Shown: piece by piece, positions 24,272 through 34,898 of the stretch
Position numbering within the stretch: position 1 is the stretch's first letter
How the letters are laid out: every line of letters starts with the position of its first letter
Assembly (NCBI GenBank): GCA_020723345.1
Contig: DYJA01000040.1
Span: 1-54,502 of the forward strand
Source: Candidatus Aquidulcis sp.
GTDB lineage: Bacteria > Chloroflexota > Anaerolineae > UBA4142
Direction: 5' to 3'
DNA: 54,502 nucleotides
Made by a program: the position numbers and the translations under genes
The notes under the pieces: model-generated
Seen by the model: the letters and a program-made list of their open reading frames with translations, nothing else
Databases searched by the model: none
Told to the model about the DNA's origin: nothing

Positions 24272-24667
24272 ATGGCAACTGTTTCGCTCATCGAATATGA
24301 AAACGCGTCGGCGGAAGTGCGCGCGGTCTTTGACGACATCAAGCGCACACGCAACGTCAAGGACGTGAACAATTTTTGGAAGGCGCTCGCGCATCATCCC
24401 GCGACGCTCAAACGAACCTGGGAAAGCGTGCGCGAGGTGATGCAGCCCGGCGCGCTCGACGCGGTGACGAAAGAGATGATTTACGTCGCGGTGTCGGTCG
24501 CGCACAACTGCGATTACTGCATCCATTCGCACACCGCTGCCGCGTTCGCGAAAGGGATGACGCCGGAGCAGTACGCGGAATTGCTCGCGGTCATCGGCAT
24601 GGCAAGCGAGACGAACGCGCTCGTGACCGCGATGAAGGTGCCGGTCGATCCGCAGTACTTGAAATAA
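24272..24667 (+). CDS. Carboxymuconolactone decarboxylase/AhpD-family protein
   Basis: 131 residues. The redox-type CxxC plus histidine motif is visible in HNCDYCIHSHTAAAF near residues 80-90, as in AhpD-like peroxidase-associated proteins. Substrate unknown; a generic antioxidant role is plausible. It lies 15 bp before the HEPN gene. Its last 26 codons have a diverged second copy at 26936-27013. Confidence 0.9.
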   Translation: MATVSLIEYENASAEVRAVFDDIKRTRNVKDVNNFWKALAHHPATLKRTWESVREVMQPGALDAVTKEMIYVAVSVAHNCDYCIHSHTAAAFAKGMTPEQYAELLAVIGMASETNALVTAMKVPVDPQYLK

Positions 24668-24682: not shown

Positions 24683-25096
24683 ATGACCGCTCAGGATGTT
24701 CGCTGGATTCAACGACTGAATCATTTCAACCAAGCCCTCGGACAACTAACGAAATTCATCCAGAAAGGCGCGTTGAATGAACTTGAAAAGCAAGGATTGA
24801 TTCAAGCATTCGAGTACACGTACGAACTTGCCTGGAACACAATAAAAGACTATCTCGAAGCCCAGGGCGAGACCAACCTGCTCGGCAGCCGCGATGTCAT
24901 TCGCTTGGCATTCAAACGCGGCTTGATCGAAGATGGCGAAACCTGGATGGACATGCTCAAGAGTCGCACCTTGACTAGCCACACCTATAACGAAGCGCTT
25001 GCCGAGACAATTGCCGCGGATATCGCCAAGCGATATTTCTCAGAATTCGTGACGCTGCGAACCAGAATGGAAGCATTGAGGAAAGATGCGCTATGA
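24683..25096 (+). CDS. HEPN-fold protein, HI0074 family (toxin-like partner of MNT)
   Basis: 137 residues, all-alpha. The sequence ENTIKDYLEA-like core (YTYELAWNTIKDYLEAQG) is diagnostic of HI0074 (nucleotidyltransferase substrate-binding) proteins. The HEPN RNase motif RX4H is present as R95-TLTS-H100 in KSRTLTSHTYNE, so ribonuclease activity is possible. A GGAGGTG site precedes the ATG. It overlaps the MNT gene by 4 bp. In characterised HEPN/MNT pairs the MNT protein nucleotidylates and silences the HEPN toxin; that role is inferred here. Confidence 0.9.
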   Translation: MTAQDVRWIQRLNHFNQALGQLTKFIQKGALNELEKQGLIQAFEYTYELAWNTIKDYLEAQGETNLLGSRDVIRLAFKRGLIEDGETWMDMLKSRTLTSHTYNEALAETIAADIAKRYFSEFVTLRTRMEALRKDAL

Positions 25097-25416
25097 CCAC
25101 GCGCTTTGGTTTGAAGGAAACCACCATCGAAAAAATCTGCGGCGTCCTGGCGCGCTATCCGCAGGTGGAACAAGCGATCCTGTACGGCTCGCGCGCCAAA
25201 GGCAATTACAAGAACGGCTCGGATATTGACCTGACGCTGCGCGGCGGCGCGGACTTGACGGTGCCCGTGCTCTACAAAATCATGGGCGAACTCGACGACC
25301 TGCTCCTACCCTACACGATTGACTTGTCCATTTTCCACGACATTAGCGATCCCGATGTGGTTGACCATATTCGCCGCGTAGGAGTGACGTTTTACGAGAA
25401 AAAGGTTGAACGATAA
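25093..25416 (+). CDS. MNT-type minimal nucleotidyltransferase (antitoxin-like)
   Basis: 107 residues. The catalytic signature is intact: G32-S33 in YGSRAKGNYKNGSDIDL, metal-binding D44 and D46, and the third acidic residue D77 (TIDLSIF). It overlaps the HEPN gene (ATGA) and the pair is thus translationally coupled. Minimal nucleotidyltransferases of this class attach nucleotides to the HEPN partner. The methyltransferase gene follows after one base. Confidence 0.92.
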   Translation: MTTRFGLKETTIEKICGVLARYPQVEQAILYGSRAKGNYKNGSDIDLTLRGGADLTVPVLYKIMGELDDLLLPYTIDLSIFHDISDPDVVDHIRRVGVTFYEKKVER

Positions 25417-26210: not shown

Positions 26211-26239
26211 TTGACAAGCTCGAATTTTTGATAGATAAT
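26211..26239 (+). promoter_or_regulatory. Promoter of leader cassette copy 1
   Basis: A perfect TTGACA (26211-26216) and GATAAT (26234-26239) are 17 bp apart. The GC-rich discriminator AGCGGC follows, then a predicted start at A26246. The same arrangement recurs at 27068-27095. Confidence 0.75.
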
Positions 26240-26245
26240 AGCGGC

Positions 26246-26309
26246 AGATCCCCCCTAGTAGCTTCGGCGAAAGGGTGCCAAGCCGCCGCAAGGCGGCTTG
26301 CGTGTTTTC
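26246..26309 (+). ncRNA. Structured leader, copy 1 (5' of NYN gene)
   Basis: About 64 nt from the predicted start. It contains TAGTAGCTTCGGCGAA, then a perfect 8-bp hairpin AAGCCGCC-GCAA-GGCGGCTT (26280-26299) followed by GCGTGTTTTC. Sequence, promoter and spacing are shared with copy 2 (27102-27165), and base changes between copies keep the hairpin. It resembles a transcription attenuator or a short terminated RNA. I do not recognise it as a named riboswitch class. Confidence 0.6.
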
Positions 26310-26315
26310 AGAGCA

Positions 26316-26935: not shown

Positions 26936-27013
26936 ATCGTCGGCATGGCAAGCGAAACGAACGCGCTCGCGACGGCGATGAAGGTGCCGGTGGATCCGCA
27001 ATTCTTGAAATGA
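26936..27013 (+). pseudogene. Remnant of a second carboxymuconolactone decarboxylase gene (3' end)
   Basis: The last 26 codons, including the stop, of the gene at 24272-24667 are repeated here (GMASETNALATAMKVPVDPQ and beyond). Of the eight codons that differ, four are synonymous and four are conservative changes (V/I, I/V, V/A, Y/F); the stop codon also differs. That suggests the copy was once a working paralogue that later lost its 5' part, rather than a fresh duplication. Confidence 0.8.
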
Positions 27014-27067: not shown

Positions 27068-27095
27068 TTGACACGCGTGTTTTTTGATAGACAAT
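27068..27095 (+). promoter_or_regulatory. Promoter of leader cassette copy 2
   Basis: TTGACA (27068-27073), a 16-bp spacer and GACAAT (27090-27095), followed by the same AGCGGCA discriminator (27096-27102) as copy 1. Confidence 0.65.
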
Positions 27096-27101
27096 AGCGG
27101 C

Positions 27102-27165
27102 AACCTCCAGTAGTAGTTTCGGCGAACCCGGTGTCAAGCCGCCTCGCGGCGGCTTGTGTGTTTTC
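27102..27165 (+). ncRNA. Structured leader, copy 2
   Basis: Shares TAGTAGTTTCGGCGAA, GGTGTCAAGCCGCC and GGCGGCTTGTGTGTTTTC with copy 1. The hairpin AAGCCGCC-TCGC-GGCGGCTT is at 27136-27155; only the loop differs in its paired region. It is followed not by a full gene but by a 36-codon open frame. Confidence 0.6.
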
Positions 27166-27173
27166 ATGCCGGA

Positions 27174-27284
27174 ATGGAGCGTCGCGTAACACTGGATCAT
27201 CTTGCGATGCTGCTCAAGACGCGGGCGCGCGAGCAGATGGCGGGTAACAATCACATGCCCTTGTTGTCACTTACCGTGATATAA
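27174..27284 (+). pseudogene. Short open frame behind leader copy 2, possibly a truncated gene
   Basis: 36 codons beginning MERRVTLDHLAMLLKTRARE and ending at TAA 27284. It begins 18 nt after the hairpin, nearly the same distance as the NYN gene from copy 1, so it could be the surviving start of a gene once controlled by this leader. Its end overlaps the promoter of the next gene. I do not recognise a family. Confidence 0.3.
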
Positions 27285-27285
27285 T
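27277..27285 (+). promoter_or_regulatory. Extended -10 promoter of the coiled-coil/helicase operon
   Basis: TGATATAAT, that is TG (27277-27278), A, TATAAT (27280-27285). No convincing -35 at 16-18 bp. The predicted start near 27292 leaves a leader of about 48 nt, with GAGGAG at 27324-27329 before the ATG at 27340. Confidence 0.65.
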
Positions 27286-27339: not shown

Positions 27340-30300
27340 ATGGCAATCCTTGAAACGGCGCTACTATTCACGGCGATTCTGGTCAGCGTAGGGTCTGTCT
27401 TTTTCCTGCGTTCCGCTATCCAGGAAAAACGAAATGCTGTGCAAAGGAATCGTGATGCCGAACAAAAATACCGCCAATCCAGAGAAGCACGGCTTTCGGC
27501 GGAAGACGCGCTTCGCCGCGCGGAAAACGAGCATCGCGAATCCGAGCGCAAACTTCAGCAAGCACAAAACGCACTCCAAACCGCAGAGAAGATTCGTCAG
27601 CAAGCGCAAGCCGAAGTTCGCGTCGCAAATGACGCGCGTGACGTGGCAATCAAGGAACGTAACGAAGCAAACGAACGCGCCCAACTCGCCGAAGAATTGC
27701 AGACGCGAGCCGAGCACGAACGTGACGCGGCAAACAAACGCGCGGGGTTGGCAGAACAGGCAAGAACGCGGGCGGAAGAAGAACGCGACGTTGCAAAGCG
27801 CGAGCGCGACGATGCCATAGAACAAGCGCGTCTAGCGAACGAACGCGCGGGGTTGGCAGAACAGGCAAGAACGCGGGCGGAAGAAGAACGCGATGCTGCA
27901 AGACGCGAACACAACGAAGCAATTCAGGCAAGAAAGATTGCCGAAGAAAACACGCGTCGCGCAATTCAAGCCAAGTTTGACGCTGAAGAACAAGCGCACC
28001 TCGCGATTCAACGCGCAGAGGAACTACGGAAGCAAGCCGAAGATGCGCGCGACGCGGCAATCAAGGAACGCGATGCGGCACTTGAACAAGCACGTCTTGC
28101 GAGTGAACGTGCCCAACACGCAGCAGAGTTACAGGCGCAAGCCGAACGCGAACGCGACGCGGCAAACGAACGCGCAGGGCAAGCCAAGAAGGAACGTGAT
28201 GAAGCAATCGCAGCCAGAAAAGTTGCTGAAGAAGACTCGCGGCGCGCAATTCAAGACAAGTTTGCGGCAGAGGAACGCGCAAAACAAGCCGAGAAAGAAC
28301 ACGACGATGCGAAAGAACAAGCGCGCTTAGCAAAGGAGGCGCAATCCAAAACAGAGAAGGAACGCGACGACGCAAACGAGCGCGCAAATAAAGCAGAGAA
28401 AAAACGCGACGCAGAAAGAGAACGGGCAGAGAAAGCAGAGAAAGAAGTCGCTGAGTTAAAGAAGACGTCCAAACCAGCCCCTGACGTACCATCAGAACCG
28501 CCACAGACTCCAAAACCGCCAAGCGTTGGTGAAAAGCCCCCAAAACTAACTATCTCACTAGACAACCGTCCACCGCAACGATCTGACGAGCCGATCTCTT
28601 CCAAGCCATCTACACCCAGACAACCCCAGCCAGAAATCACGTGTATCCAGAAACAGAACGAGTGGGTATTAAGAGTTGAGTTGCCGCAAGAGTTACTCGA
28701 GCGGTATCCTGATCCACAGGTTTTTCAAAATGGAATACAACTTGATGGTACAGAGGATTCCTGGCAATTGAACGATGCGCGAGGCAATTTGGTCGTCCGC
28801 GCAGATGGCAAGGATATTTGGCAGACCGATCTTGGTGAGTGGACCGATGATCCTTTGCTGTTCAAGTTAATTGGTAAAAGCGAACACGGTCGTCGTGTGC
28901 GTGCTGTTACTCAAGGGTGGTTTTTGTTGGTTGTACCAGAGCATTGGAAACACGCGAGCTATGAACCGCAGTTTGTGTCTGTCAGAGGTTATCACGCATA
29001 TTGGCGTCTGATTGATGATCGCCGTGAAATCTCCTTTCAAACGTCGAGCGGAAAAAACAAAGCCGTTACTCCGCGTGTAGCGCAATTCACCTTGATTGGG
29101 AAGGATCTCCACGACGCCGATGAACTACAATGCCCCCTTTTTGGTGATGAACTGCCAAACATCCGCGCGGCAAATCCAAATGCCTGGCAACAAGTCAAGA
29201 CGATTGTTTTAGGCGAGGAAGGACGCGCGCGAAAGAATTGGGAATCCATCCCAATCACTCCTGTCGCAAATAAAGCCGAGCAAGACCTGCCGACCAAAAT
29301 ACTGAGCTGGCAAGGATCTTGGTTTTTTGTCCGCTTCTATGACGAAAACGATCAACTGATTGAAAGCATGGATTTTCGATTAGCGCGCGGCTTGAGCGAT
29401 ATTCAAGTCAATCAAGCATCGCCGTTTCCTGGGGAGGATGGCCATTCTGCGACATCGGTCGAATTTCATCACACGGCGGAATGTACTATTCAGCCACCAT
29501 CTGATTTTACAGCGGTACCATCTGAGCGTGGGACTCGTACCGAAATCCCAGCGAGTGCCACGTCGGACAAAACTTGTTGGCGCATAATTGCGGAAGGACA
29601 CGAAGACAATCCAATTGACATCACCGTTTTGGTAGAAAGAATTTGGTGGGCAGTTGGAACAAAGGACAAAACGCCGTCCGATTCGGAATGGAATGACAAG
29701 CCACTTTCCTTGACACGCACAGATTTCGCTGCCGTCTCCGAAAAAGTTTTGTGGATTCGGTTGCCTAAACCGCGCTGGACAGATACGGTACTGGTTGGAT
29801 TTTCACAGGAAACCGCACGACCATTCCCCGTCAAAGTAACAGAACAAACTGTTTCCATTCCATTATGCGAATTCGAGAGCAACGAGTCCCTTCGGCAAAT
29901 TAGCGTGTCACGTTTTGGCATTTGGGTTGGCGATTCCAACGCGACACTCGCGTATGTTCGTGTTCAAGCCAAGTGCCGACATTGCGATTTCTCGGCAGAT
30001 TTGCAAACGGATATGATGACTCATATTGAATCGCGACATTTGATCGAGATCTTTCAGTCGCTGACATATGAGGAACATCGCAAGAGAAACCCTGCCCTGC
30101 CACGTCGCATCGCGATTTGTTTGATTTGTTGGGAACAGGGTTATCATTTCGTCGCTCGCGAAGATAGTCCAAAAGACAACGTGAACGACATGATGAAGGA
30201 TCACAAACGCCAAAAGAGACATGCACACAACTTCTACGAAGAACTAACAGATGTCGAAAAGATACGCGAACGATTGCCGAGCTTGATTCCTGACATCCAG

Positions 30301-30408
30301 AGGTGCACATTACACTCGTGTGAATGGGAAAAAGAAGAACCATCCAAAGCCGATTTGCTTCGCCACTTGAAAGAGAATCATTTAAACGCGCTCTACGAGC
30401 TTCGTTAA
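27340..30408 (+). CDS. Membrane-anchored coiled-coil protein with three C-terminal C2H2-type fingers
   Basis: 1022 residues, not recognised as a named family. Residues ~4-23 form a single N-terminal membrane helix. Residues ~27-375 are a continuous Glu/Lys/Arg/Ala coiled coil with internal duplications (LAEQARTRAEEERD twice, encoded by an exact 51-bp direct repeat 105 bp apart). A Pro-rich linker (~376-435) leads to a mainly beta region (~436-875). The C-terminus holds three candidate zinc fingers: C879/C882/H895/H900, C927/C930/H955/H961, and C989/C994/H1009/H1014. Such fingers are rare in bacteria. GAGGAG lies 10 nt before the ATG. The helicase gene follows after 14 bp; by eye both are lower in GC than flanking genes. 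A role as membrane-tethered sensor or recruiter for the helicase is inference. Confidence 0.85.
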   Translation: MAILETALLFTAILVSVGSVFFLRSAIQEKRNAVQRNRDAEQKYRQSREARLSAEDALRRAENEHRESERKLQQAQNALQTAEKIRQQAQAEVRVANDARDVAIKERNEANERAQLAEELQTRAEHERDAANKRAGLAEQARTRAEEERDVAKRERDDAIEQARLANERAGLAEQARTRAEEERDAARREHNEAIQARKIAEENTRRAIQAKFDAEEQAHLAIQRAEELRKQAEDARDAAIKERDAALEQARLASERAQHAAELQAQAERERDAANERAGQAKKERDEAIAARKVAEEDSRRAIQDKFAAEERAKQAEKEHDDAKEQARLAKEAQSKTEKERDDANERANKAEKKRDAERERAEKAEKEVAELKKTSKPAPDVPSEPPQTPKPPSVGEKPPKLTISLDNRPPQRSDEPISSKPSTPRQPQPEITCIQKQNEWVLRVELPQELLERYPDPQVFQNGIQLDGTEDSWQLNDARGNLVVRADGKDIWQTDLGEWTDDPLLFKLIGKSEHGRRVRAVTQGWFLLVVPEHWKHASYEPQFVSVRGYHAYWRLIDDRREISFQTSSGKNKAVTPRVAQFTLIGKDLHDADELQCPLFGDELPNIRAANPNAWQQVKTIVLGEEGRARKNWESIPITPVANKAEQDLPTKILSWQGSWFFVRFYDENDQLIESMDFRLARGLSDIQVNQASPFPGEDGHSATSVEFHHTAECTIQPPSDFTAVPSERGTRTEIPASATSDKTCWRIIAEGHEDNPIDITVLVERIWWAVGTKDKTPSDSEWNDKPLSLTRTDFAAVSEKVLWIRLPKPRWTDTVLVGFSQETARPFPVKVTEQTVSIPLCEFESNESLRQISVSRFGIWVGDSNATLAYVRVQAKCRHCDFSADLQTDMMTHIESRHLIEIFQSLTYEEHRKRNPALPRRIAICLICWEQGYHFVAREDSPKDNVNDMMKDHKRQKRHAHNFYEELTDVEKIRERLPSLIPDIQRCTLHSCEWEKEEPSKADLLRHLKENHLNALYELR

Positions 30409-30422
30409 GGAGACACCCCAAA

Positions 30423-33400
30423 ATGGATCCTATCACCCTTGCACGCCAAGTTGAAGAACGCTACCAACGTTATCTCAAGACGATGTTCTATTTTCGTGAC
30501 CCCGCTCTGCGTGAATCGTTCGCGCAAGCTCTTGCGGCGGGACATCTGAGCAAAGGACCATTCCTCGAAGCGACACCAATTTTCAAGAAGGGGGACACTC
30601 CGCGCGCGTTGTTCACACGCCTTCTCGGTTCTGCTCCAGACACAGGGTTTATCAAAGCGCTAGAAGGTGAGCGCCCACTCCACATGCACCAGCATCGCGC
30701 GATAGAACGCGTTGACCAAGGTCACAACGTTATCGTGGCGACAGGCACAGGTAGCGGCAAAACAGAAGCGTTTCTTTATCCCATTCTCCTGCACCTTTAC
30801 CGCCAACATAAAGCGGGTAAACTCGGCGCAGGCGTGCGCGCGCTCGTGCTCTATCCCATGAACGCGCTTGCCAACGACCAGCGTGATCGCTTGGCAACAA
30901 TCAGCAAGAAACTTGAGGCAGAAAATTCCTCTTTCAGATTTACGTTTGGGCAGTACATCGGCGAAACACCTGAAGGCGTGAAGAACGTGGCGCGTAGCAC
31001 AGGCAAACTCGCGGGCGAATTGAAAACGCGTGCCGAAATCCGCGATACACCTCCGCATATTCTCCTCACCAATTACTCGATGCTCGAATATCTCTTGATT
31101 CGTCCCAACGACCATCCGCTTTTTGACGAAAAGAGCGCGCCGTGGTGGACATTCCTGGTATTGGATGAAGCGCACCTCTATCGCGGCGCACGCGGCATCG
31201 AAATGGGAATGTTGATCCGACGACTCAAGCAACGTCTGCATGAAGGTGGTTGCGCGAGCGAGTTCCGCTGCATCGCCACAAGCGCGACGCTAGTAAGCAA
31301 AGAAAAAGACAAGCAGGCTGTCGCGGATTTTGCCACCAATCTATTCGGTGAACCTTTTGCAGAAGAAGATGTCATTCTCGGTGAAACCGAAAAGATCACG
31401 TTGACGGATCAGCGCGCCACGCAACTATGCGATCTCATCACGGGCAAGCCATTGCCTGTGGAACAAGTCGCCGATCAAGTTTTCGGGGATGTGCCAGCAG
31501 AGAATCGTCCACGCGAGTTGACGAACCTTGTCGAACGGCTAACGCAAACTAAAGACTCGCTCACCAATCCGGCTGTGTTATCGGCACGGTTTCATGTGTT
31601 TCTGCGTTCGCTGGAAGGCGCATACATTCAGTTTTTGCCGCAAGAGAGAATCCTGCTCGAAAAGAATGATGGCGATCCATCCGCTGCTATATTTGAAATT
31701 GCCTTGTGCCGCGAATGCGGTCAGCACTATATCGTCGCACCAAAAGGATTCGAGGGCGGTAAGTTGACTGAAGCGATTCGCGATCCCAGTCACGAGGATT
31801 TTGGCGCAACATTCTTGCGACCAATCGAGGACAAAGATGATGCAAGCGAAGAAGATGAAGATACCAAACCCACCGCCAAAGACACATATCAATTGTGCGT
31901 TCGATGTGGCGAGATGGCAAAGGACAAACCGCGTTGCGGGCATAGCCATTTGATACGTGTTGTCAAAGAAAAATCCAATGATAGTGTCAGGGCAGATCAA
32001 ATCAATGACAAGGCGGATCAAATCAAACGTTGTGGCATGTGTGGTTACAACGCAGCAGGGCGCGACCCTGTGCGTGAAGTCGTGCATGGCACAGATGGGC
32101 CACACTCGGTTATCGCGACGACGCTGTACCAAAACTTGGACAGCAAAAAAGTACTGGCATTTGCCGATGGACGTCAAGAAGCCGCGTTCTTTGCGTGGTA
32201 CCTCGACAAATCCTATCATGACATTCTGAGCCGCAATTTGTTTTTGCGTATCGCCAGGAGTTTCCAAGAATTTCCAGCCAGCGGGGTTGCTCTCGCGACG
32301 ATTGCTGACCGCGCTTTATCAAATTTTCGTGATTCATTCAAAGAAAGCGAGAGCGATGACGAACCGACAATTCGTAAAAATATTTGGCGCGCGCTCTACC
32401 GTGAATTTCTGACCGAAGAGCAACGGATTTCGCTTGAAGGCGTCGGGCTAATTCGCTGGTCAATCGAATTCCCCAAGTGGTTCACTGTTCCCGATATTTT
32501 GCTTCAACCGCCATGGTCACTCACCGAAGCCGAGGCGCGCGGCTTGATTGCGCTGTTGCTCAACACAATGCGAACCGACTATGCTGTTGAACTCAAATGC
32601 AAAGGTGATGTCGCACTCAATTGGCAAGACCTCGCTTTGGGTCGGACGCAAACGAGATTCCGAATTGGTTCACGCGCCAAACAGAAAGATGTCGAGAGTT
32701 GGAACAGTACTCGCACTCGTCGCGCCAAATTGCTGGGAAAACTTGCGCGAGGTCAGGTTGACACCTCGCGGATTGACCAAGCCCTCCGTGAAATCTGGCA
32801 GGCGTTTACGCTTGACGAGAATCCACCTTTCCTTGAACGCATAGATGACGCGCGTCGACTAAATCCCAATTGGTGGCGATTGCGCCTGATTGCGGAGCAA
32901 GAAACGATTTTTGAATGTCGCGTGTGCGGACAGATTCAAACCATTTCCGTACAGGGATTTTGCGCGCGGCGCGGCTGTCCTGGCAAACTGCAAGAAAAAA
33001 CGCGACAAGACTTGGAACTCGATCACTATCGCGCGCTGTACGAAGATAATTTGCCAAGTTCGCTTGTCGTGGAAGAACATACCGCGCAACTCGATCATGA
33101 CAGGGCGCGCGAATTTCAACAGCGATTCAAGGACAACAAGATCAACGTTCTCAGTTGCTCGACCACTTTCGAGTTGGGCGTTGATTTGGGCGACCTCGAT
33201 ACTGCGTTTCTGCGGAATGTTCCTCCCGAAAGTTTCAATTACGCGCAGCGCGTTGGGCGCGTTGGGCGACGACTGGGTCGTCCTGGCTTTGTGGTGACGT
33301 ACTGTCGGCGCAATCCCCACGACTTGTACCACTTTAACGATCCTTACCGAATGTTGCGCGGTCAGACCCAACCGCCCGCTATCGCGCTTTGCAATGAAAA

Positions 33401-34898
33401 GATCATCACGCGCCACATCGCCGCTGTTGTGTTCTCCGCGTTTTTCCGCGCAAACGCAGATAGATTTGGCAATGTGGAAACACTGTGCAGAGACATTGCT
33501 AATCCATCGAGCAACACAGACCTGCATGGTTTTTTGCAACAACATCGCCGCGAACTGGAAGAATCCTTGCGGAAGATCGTGCCAACCGAGATTACGTTTG
33601 AGGTTGGCTTGAATGATAACACGTGGATTGAGAAAATCGTCGGAGCAAACAGCCGCTTCGCAGAAGCAGAAGCCGAAGTATCGAGCGATTACAAGCAAGT
33701 TGCTGATTTGAGAAACGAATCTGCACAAAAGTATGATCCCCAACAGATGGGGTGGGCAAACCGACGACTTGATACTATCGCCAAAGAGAATACACTTTCG
33801 TTTCTTTCACGCAAGGCAGTGATTCCCAAGTACGGCTTTCCCGTTGACGTTGTGGAGTTGGATACGCATCGGACCACCAATGCCGAATCCAGCACTGTAT
33901 CGCTTCAACGCGATCTCTCGATTGCCATTTCGGAATTTGCGCCATCTAGCGAATTGATTGCTAACAAAAAGATGTGGAAATCCTACGGACTGAAAAAGGT
34001 CGCAGGAAAGGAATGGGAACGCTACTGGTATGCGCGTTGCGCCACCCACGCGCGCTTTGAACGAAAACGTTACGCACAAGGCGAGCCGCGCCCATCGTTC
34101 GACAAATGTTGTGACAAAATGAGCGTCACAGACTATATTGAGCCACGCTTTGGTTTCGTGACGGAAAACACCAAGCCGAAGGAGCCAACGGGACGCCCTG
34201 TCCGCGTGTTTACCACACGACCCTATTTCTGGGGCTTCAAAGATGGCGACGAAAAAGCAGGAGAGCCGATCAACGCAGTCGTTAGCGCGACAAAGGTCTC
34301 ACCTGGCATTATGGTTGTGGTATGTGAAGGACGACGCGGGCAAGGTTTCTACGTCTGCGACAAGTGTGGCGCGGGATTCCAGAACAAGAATCAATTTACA
34401 AAGGGACACGACACTCCTTATGGGCAGGAATGTTCGGCGCGCCCAGATACTCTGAGTCGAGTTATGCTTGGCCATGAGTTGCTCACCGATGTCCTGAAAC
34501 TCCAATTCCAATTGCCACCTCCCAGTCCAAGCAATTCAACCTGGCTTGCGTTCGCGCTCGCCTATGCGCTTGTGGAAGGCGCGGCAGAGACGCTCGACGT
34601 TCCAGCCACCGATTTGAGCGCGACGGTTGCCTACGCGCGGGACAAACAGATTCCTCCAATCGTGCTTTTCGACAATGTGCCAGGCGGCGCGGGCTTGGTA
34701 GCGCGGCTAGAAAACAAGAACAAGTTGAAGGAATGTCTTGAAGCGGCAAAAGAACGCGTCAGCGGCAAGTGTGGATGTCGAGAGGAAGATAGTTGCTACG
34801 GTTGTCTGCGAAACTATCGCAATCAATTTGCTCACGCCCACATCCAACGGGGAGCAGCGCTCCATTACTTGGAATCAGTGTTGTCGCAGTGGGAATAG
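30423..34898 (+). CDS. Large DEAH-box helicase with internal Cys clusters and C-terminal DUF1998
   Basis: 1491 residues from ATG 30423, chosen because GGAG (30409-30412) precedes it; longer in-frame upstream sequence overlaps the previous gene. Superfamily 2 motifs: TGTGSGKT (K113), [14 protein letters not shown] 248-251, SAT 287-289, and QRVGRVGR (942-949) after [11 protein letters not shown]. Zinc-type cysteines occur in the insertion (C429/C432, C492/C495/C505, C537/C540) and at C832/C835. The DUF1998 module has [11 protein letters not shown] near 1416-1425 and C1450, C1452, C1458, C1461 in [18 protein letters not shown]1998 helicases include repair enzyme MrfA (much shorter) and large defence helicases such as Druantia DruE, with DISARM splitting similar domains over two genes. 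Its partner upstream and the nearby HEPN/MNT and NYN genes favour defence; this is inference. Confidence 0.93.

Follow-up and report, generated by a model that had tools for sequence, protein, structure and literature searches.

A putative divergent Druantia III-like gene pair in Candidatus Aquidulcis, with a DruH-related core and a DruE-family helicase

A contig of Candidatus Aquidulcis sp. (Chloroflexota; GenBank assembly GCA_020723345.1, contig DYJA01000040.1, positions 1 to 54,502, the stretch of 54,502 nucleotides referred to here as the window) carries two adjacent, co-directional genes, and the question they raise is to which kind of system, known or new, they belong. The first gene (27340..30408) encodes a protein of 1022 aa, hereafter the partner, and the second (30423..34898) a helicase of 1491 aa; these genes and all features described within them or as their signals lie on the forward strand. 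An initial annotation of the locus, made from the letters of the sequence, had proposed an undescribed defence system. That proposal is not supported as worded: the helicase scores as a member of the DruE family, and the DruH core can be connected to the body of the partner by way of an intermediate family. Judged from sequence, the pair would be a divergent, two-gene anti-phage system resembling Druantia type III, made of an Ig (immunoglobulin)-like, DruH-related core and a DruE-family helicase, a reading to which we give a probability of a little over 0.6. Because the link to DruH is remote and stepwise, the pair would be a variant of Druantia III rather than a textbook member.

The DruE-family helicase

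The DEAD (RecA1, 30687..31298), Helicase_C (RecA2, 33048..33269) and zinc-binding MZB/DUF1998 (34557..34808) domains all score above Pfam cut-offs and lie in a single polypeptide, and the lysine K113 of the Walker A motif GTGSGKT (about 30744-30764) is invariant in the alignment of the helicase family. Against PADLOC, the window helicase matches DruE1 with 591 bits (E=1e-177) and DruE3 with 527 bits, compared with 88 bits for the best non-DruE model; the DrmA model scores far below DruE, and the other helicases of the family likewise score as DruE. By these scores the helicase, an SF2 enzyme, belongs unambiguously to the DruE family, which agrees with the earlier assignment to a DUF1998 helicase family known from anti-phage systems. 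DISARM differs in having DrmA and DrmB as split genes, while here the helicase core and DUF1998 are in one polypeptide. Among solved structures, the family profile finds a DEAD/DEAH helicase of 2108 aa (9tu7, E 5e-121), which is taken as E. coli-type DruE because 9tud, of the same entry series, is DruH.

Thirteen family helicases, 44-82% identical to that of the window, all terminate shortly past DUF1998, and the window helicase has no Pfam match to a phospholipase D (PLD) nuclease domain. At about 1500 aa and without C-terminal PLD domains, it differs in this from the E. coli DruE (2114 aa in the locus used for comparison, L049), which has two such domains (PMC13192584). In a quick tree of 45 helicases, which contains some long branches but none inside the family, the lineage of the window helicase forms one clade (support 100) and joins a Chloroflexota clade of helicases of about 1650 residues (support 98). 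The next group consists of two type II Druantia helicases, with a support of 93 that is under the 95 mark, and the lineage stands apart from the E. coli-type DruE III and from the ARMADA helicases. Bell et al. (PMC12458937) describe a Druantia type III-like branch with DruE-like helicases that are separate from III-A and mostly lack a nuclease, a representative being labelled III-B; the clade of the window helicase and its nearest clade plausibly fall in this branch. The present pair differs from that account in that, in the passages considered here, DruH is unnamed and the partner architecture undescribed. In two of the family loci (L026 and L027) the helicase is divided between a pair of frames (870+691 aa in one locus and 648+889 aa in the other), which may reflect decay, sequencing error or a real split.

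The partner protein and its relation to DruH

The partner matches no model at curated cut-off in Pfam, NCBIfam or PADLOC. Its architecture as initially annotated, with a membrane helix, a coiled coil, a Pro-rich linker, a beta-rich body and three C2H2-like fingers, was reproduced by hydropathy, periodicity and an AlphaFold2 model. A single hydrophobic segment begins at residue 3 (mean Kyte-Doolittle hydropathy 2.06 over 19 residues) and marks a membrane helix at about residues 3-23 (27346..27408). It is predicted to be N-out/C-in by the positive-inside rule, since lysine and arginine occur only after the helix (four in the following 15 residues, none ahead). Residues 26-375 (27415..28464) are made of duplicated repeats, consist to 83% of A, E, K, R, Q, D and N and show a strong hydrophobic periodicity of 3.5 residues; by this pattern the segment is a canonical coiled coil. 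It is followed by the Pro-rich linker (residues 376-435; 28465..28644), the conserved Ig-like body (residues 436-870; 28645..29949) and three C2H2-like zinc fingers (residues 871-1022; 29950..30405).

The AlphaFold2 model of residues 436-1022 has a mean predicted local distance difference test (pLDDT) score of 88 and shows an Ig-like chain of beta-sandwiches, followed by three beta-beta-helix finger units. Matches of the fingers to C2H2 profiles are weak; in four close relatives the two Cys and two His of finger one are invariant, as are several later Cys and His residues. In a fold search against the PDB the model of the body resembles many Ig and fibronectin type III (FN3) chains at a Z of about 7, a score too low to point to any particular family. 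DruH (9tud) did not appear in the matches listed, from a library that may not hold this entry. A specific likeness of the body to baseplate J proteins was considered but not demonstrated, as Foldseek against viral models gave generic Ig-like chains only.

The connection to DruH was obtained by comparing profiles in two steps. In hhalign, the partner body aligns with the partner family of the nearest helicase clade at 97% probability (E 1.3e-10, 421 columns), and that family in turn matches the middle region of the DruH profile at 95.9% (E 5.5e-9), over 342 columns. For these two strong links, controls that were reversed or shuffled by block or by column reach at most 33, as against 68-106 for the links themselves. 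When the sequences are split by region, the cores alone match and the ends do not. The single sequence of E. coli DruH finds no match in the partner body, the DruH profile being needed, and DruH has also been described as having Ig-like domains (PMC13192584). The profile evidence supports a remote homology of the partner core to the DruH core, reached stepwise via the nearest-clade partner. We conclude from the same comparisons that the Ig-like core is probably what these partners have in common and that their ends are exchangeable; the combination of membrane helix, coiled coil and C2H2 fingers is one of several swappable end sets and does not define the family. Two other relationships were rejected: the DruH N-terminal region compared with the N-terminus of the nearest-clade partners scored no better than shuffled controls, and the partner body gave no match to DruB or DruC of Druantia I and no profile similarity to the two upstream proteins of Nostoc type II.

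Exchangeable ends, distribution and genomic context

Relatives of the partner body (residues 436-1022) occur in about a dozen phyla, including Chloroflexota, Planctomycetota, Bacteroidota, Acidobacteriota, Thermodesulfobacteriota, Bipolaricaulota and KSB1, although all or nearly all are from metagenome-assembled genomes, in which the phylum label depends on binning. The presence of the pair is patchy (4/99 relatives and 8/400 in the phylum), and no relatives of the body were found by tblastn in plasmids and phages or in IMG/VR. The initial annotation suggested asking whether homologues of the partner lie next to such helicases, and they do: a DruE-like family helicase is found directly downstream, on the same strand, in each of the 25 non-duplicate loci whose sequence extends far enough, that of the window included. 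This count leaves out three loci in which the contig ends first (L015, L022 and L025), and one further family helicase (L083) comes without upstream sequence. Identity to the window proteins is 22-54% for the partners and 44-82% for the helicases, the partner diverging faster, as DruH likewise does relative to DruE (PMC13192584). A Dehalococcoides mccartyi bin (L035, 7995-8264) contains an orphan piece of the partner body, 90 residues long, without an adjoining family helicase.

It is at the two ends of the partner that the family varies. A single membrane helix is present in 17 of the 29 family rows, including the window protein, and in 13 of these 17 the positive charge is higher after the helix than before it; the long coiled coil is added in the genus of the window and close kin. 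Two members have instead an N-terminus like the LmuB-type SMC ATPase (PADLOC LmuB, best E 8e-11), and by the sequences of the ABC signature and Walker B motif these can be identified as L019 and L023. One member has an Mrr_N N-terminus (E 1e-12). Just ahead of the body, most members carry a KRGGRPR-like motif that resembles an AT-hook, a matter of resemblance only; it was not found in the partner of the window. C2H2-like fingers form the C-terminus in most members and an S9-like domain in four, the remainder having a tail that looks helical and holds no named domain. The four matches to ribosomal protein S9 (L017, L018, L020 and L026) score above the gathering cut-off, with E down to 2.7e-14, and cover model positions 1-94 of 121, which leaves the profile unmatched at its C-terminal end.

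The nearest Chloroflexota clade of helicases also has a large partner gene directly upstream, and in six of its 11 partners (L085, L087, L088, L089, L093 and L094, assigned from the alignment) the C-terminus matches sigma-70 regions 1.2, 2, 3 and 4 and so resembles a complete sigma-70. PADLOC labels part of the sigma-70 region as MzaA in the three members of this clade that were tested. No paper naming both Druantia and a sigma factor was found in the literature searched, nor was a description of the partner architecture with its swapped ends.

The initial annotation had also suggested asking whether such pairs occur in defence islands. Among 83 neighbouring open reading frames (ORFs) of the relatives, single members match PADLOC BREX genes, HmaB/HmaC, a type III restriction enzyme and others, and in one locus (L018) the position of BrxC was checked and lies 2.2 kb from the pair. 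The context is suggestive of defence in some loci and is not uniform.

Within the window, ORFs and Pfam domains confirm a DUF1998 helicase of 1491 residues beginning 14 bp after the partner gene. Its reading frame opens at 30324, the ATG used is at 30423, and it is preceded by the ribosome-binding site TAAGGAG (30406..30412). The extended -10 promoter claimed for both genes, TGATATAAT, is present upstream of the partner gene (27277..27285) as a consensus match only; a good -35 was not found for it, and a role in serving both genes is conjectural. The lower GC content that had been noted by eye is real when computed: 0.511 for the partner gene and 0.521 for the helicase gene, with 0.577 in the upstream and 0.590 in the downstream flank. 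At third codon positions (GC3) the values are 0.475 and 0.539, versus 0.63-0.79 for 15 further genes in the window, all of these comparisons being within the contig. The two-gene cassette was probably acquired horizontally, and the intermixing of phyla inside the helicase family clade fits such transfer.

Upstream of the pair are a gene with a NYN domain, a methyltransferase gene and a nucleotidyltransferase/substrate-binding pair, and downstream is a pyridoxal-phosphate enzyme of the PALP family. The nucleotidyltransferase substrate-binding protein and the Polbeta-type nucleotidyltransferase (24683-25416) likely form a toxin-antitoxin pair of the MNT/HEPN type. A 75-nt direct repeat (91%), at 24591-24665 and 26937-27011, corresponds to the 3' end of a carboxymuconolactone decarboxylase gene; its copies flank the nucleotidyltransferase pair, the methyltransferase and the NYN gene, just upstream of the two-gene system. 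Two further stretches that look alike by eye, each of about 85 nt, lie at about 26224-26312, upstream of the NYN gene, and at about 27083-27168, upstream of the two-gene system, and each ends in a hairpin followed by T (AAGCCGCC...GGCGGCTTG). An Rfam search of the window, these stretches included, gave no match.

Competing readings and proposed mechanism

Druantia type III (DruH-DruE, of E. coli and M. smegmatis) shares with the pair the order of two co-directional genes, a large partner and then a DruE-family helicase, as well as the Ig-like domains, the remote homology of the cores and the faster divergence of the partner. It differs in that its DruH has ends not detectable here, where there are instead a membrane and coiled-coil N-terminus and a C2H2 C-terminus, and in having a longer helicase from another clade. 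A short yjiT followed by the pseudogene yjiV in E. coli K-12 (L045, 10415-14856) looks like a decayed Druantia III locus. Druantia type II and type IV CoCoNuT combine a DruE-family helicase with coiled-coil-containing components (PMC12458937), but their gene sets differ from this pair, and Pfam gave no GTPase match in the partner that would indicate a McrB/CnuB-like component. To Lamassu (LmuB) and Shield (ShdA) the likeness is one of working principle only, some family members having the LmuB-like N-terminus; there is no LmuA effector or RmuC nuclease here, and the core and the helicase partner differ.

Several observations weigh against a Druantia III-like system. PADLOC DruH models match none of 27 family members at E<=1, while E. 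coli DruH matches 12 of them; profile searches, as initially suggested, recover DruE for the helicase and no DruH for the partner. The direct comparison of the partner core with the DruH profile is colinear but weak (19%, E 0.0012), and no similarity above controls was detected in the partner family to the N- and C-terminal regions of DruH. The PLD nuclease of DruE and the nuclease activity reported for DruH have no counterpart seen in this pair. Finally, the neighbours in the window are mostly metabolic, apart from the nucleotidyltransferase/substrate-binding pair and the NYN gene, and form no clear defence island. The first of these points, together with the low direct score, the entirely different flanking domains and the commonness of Ig-like folds, could also be explained by an independent defence system, likewise based on a helicase, that has no more than a YprA/DruE helicase in common with Druantia and whose partner is unrelated to DruH, its Ig-like chains being convergent. 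This is rather unlikely, given that the two-step homology is colinear over 340-420 columns, far above the rearranged controls, and that gene order and helicase family are those of Druantia III. Metabolic neighbours would also suit a DNA repair or genome-maintenance pair of the MrfA/YprA kind, the repair enzyme MrfA being itself a DUF1998 helicase. Such a role is very improbable for a patchily distributed pair of foreign composition, with phyla intermixed in its tree and a helicase that scores as DruE, in a genome that holds a separate, shorter YprA-like helicase elsewhere (contig C111).

A different doubt concerns the division of labour within a defence system. The partner might be mainly a scaffold that tethers the helicase to membrane or DNA, leaving the helicase alone to sense DNA structure; the zinc fingers, like the basic KRGGRPR-like motif, point to nucleic-acid binding, and DruE itself discriminates 3'-tailed DNA (PMC13192584). 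We regard this as doubtful, if worth keeping in mind: in the E. coli system the sensor is likely to be DruH (PMC13192584), and variable sensing fits better than constant scaffolding because modules as different as S9-like, LmuB-like ATPase and Mrr_N domains, and sigma-70 regions in the nearest clade, replace one another at the partner's ends. At the other extreme, the partner could be a general modular immune receptor, with a constant Ig-like core wired to DruE and exchangeable ends serving as baits or decoys when phages take over the machinery of the host. The sigma-70 end would then watch transcription, the S9-like end translation, the membrane anchors entry, and the LmuB-like ATPase and Mrr_N ends DNA, by a logic comparable to the integrated decoys of plant immune receptors; this extension is speculative and unlikely.

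Returning to the Druantia III-like reading, a mechanism can be proposed for the pair by analogy with published work, in which DruH is a likely infection sensor and DruE a helicase acting on 3'-tailed DNA (PMC13192584), and DruH-DruE blocks circularisation and replication of phage DNA (PMC13316683). The partner is predicted to be tethered by its N-terminus to the inner membrane, on the cytoplasmic side, and to oligomerise through the coiled coil, while the C2H2-like fingers probably bind nucleic acid or protein. The Ig-like core with its exchangeable C-terminal module would sense a signal of infection, possibly near the site of DNA entry, and would then activate or recruit the DruE-family helicase. 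The latter would load on phage intermediates at their 3' single-stranded DNA, and unwinding would block circularisation or replication of phage DNA, any cutting being left to host nucleases. The damaging step is suggested to be unwinding itself or a host nuclease, because the helicase has no nuclease domain. On this analysis, the partner is most likely a membrane-tethered sensor that activates or recruits the helicase; the sensor or platform role given to it in the initial annotation is plausible, and most relatives retain a membrane helix, whose predicted orientation is mostly that of the window protein.

The family suggests that an Ig-like core and DruE are the fixed elements of two-gene Druantia-like systems, while everything else in the partner is swapped wholesale. 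PADLOC 2.0 sees the helicase and misses the partner, so such systems are probably under-counted. Sensing by DruH is called likely, and not settled, in papers of 2026, and the natural chimeras described here (S9-like, sigma-70 in the nearest clade, and others) would be favourable material for asking what DruH senses.

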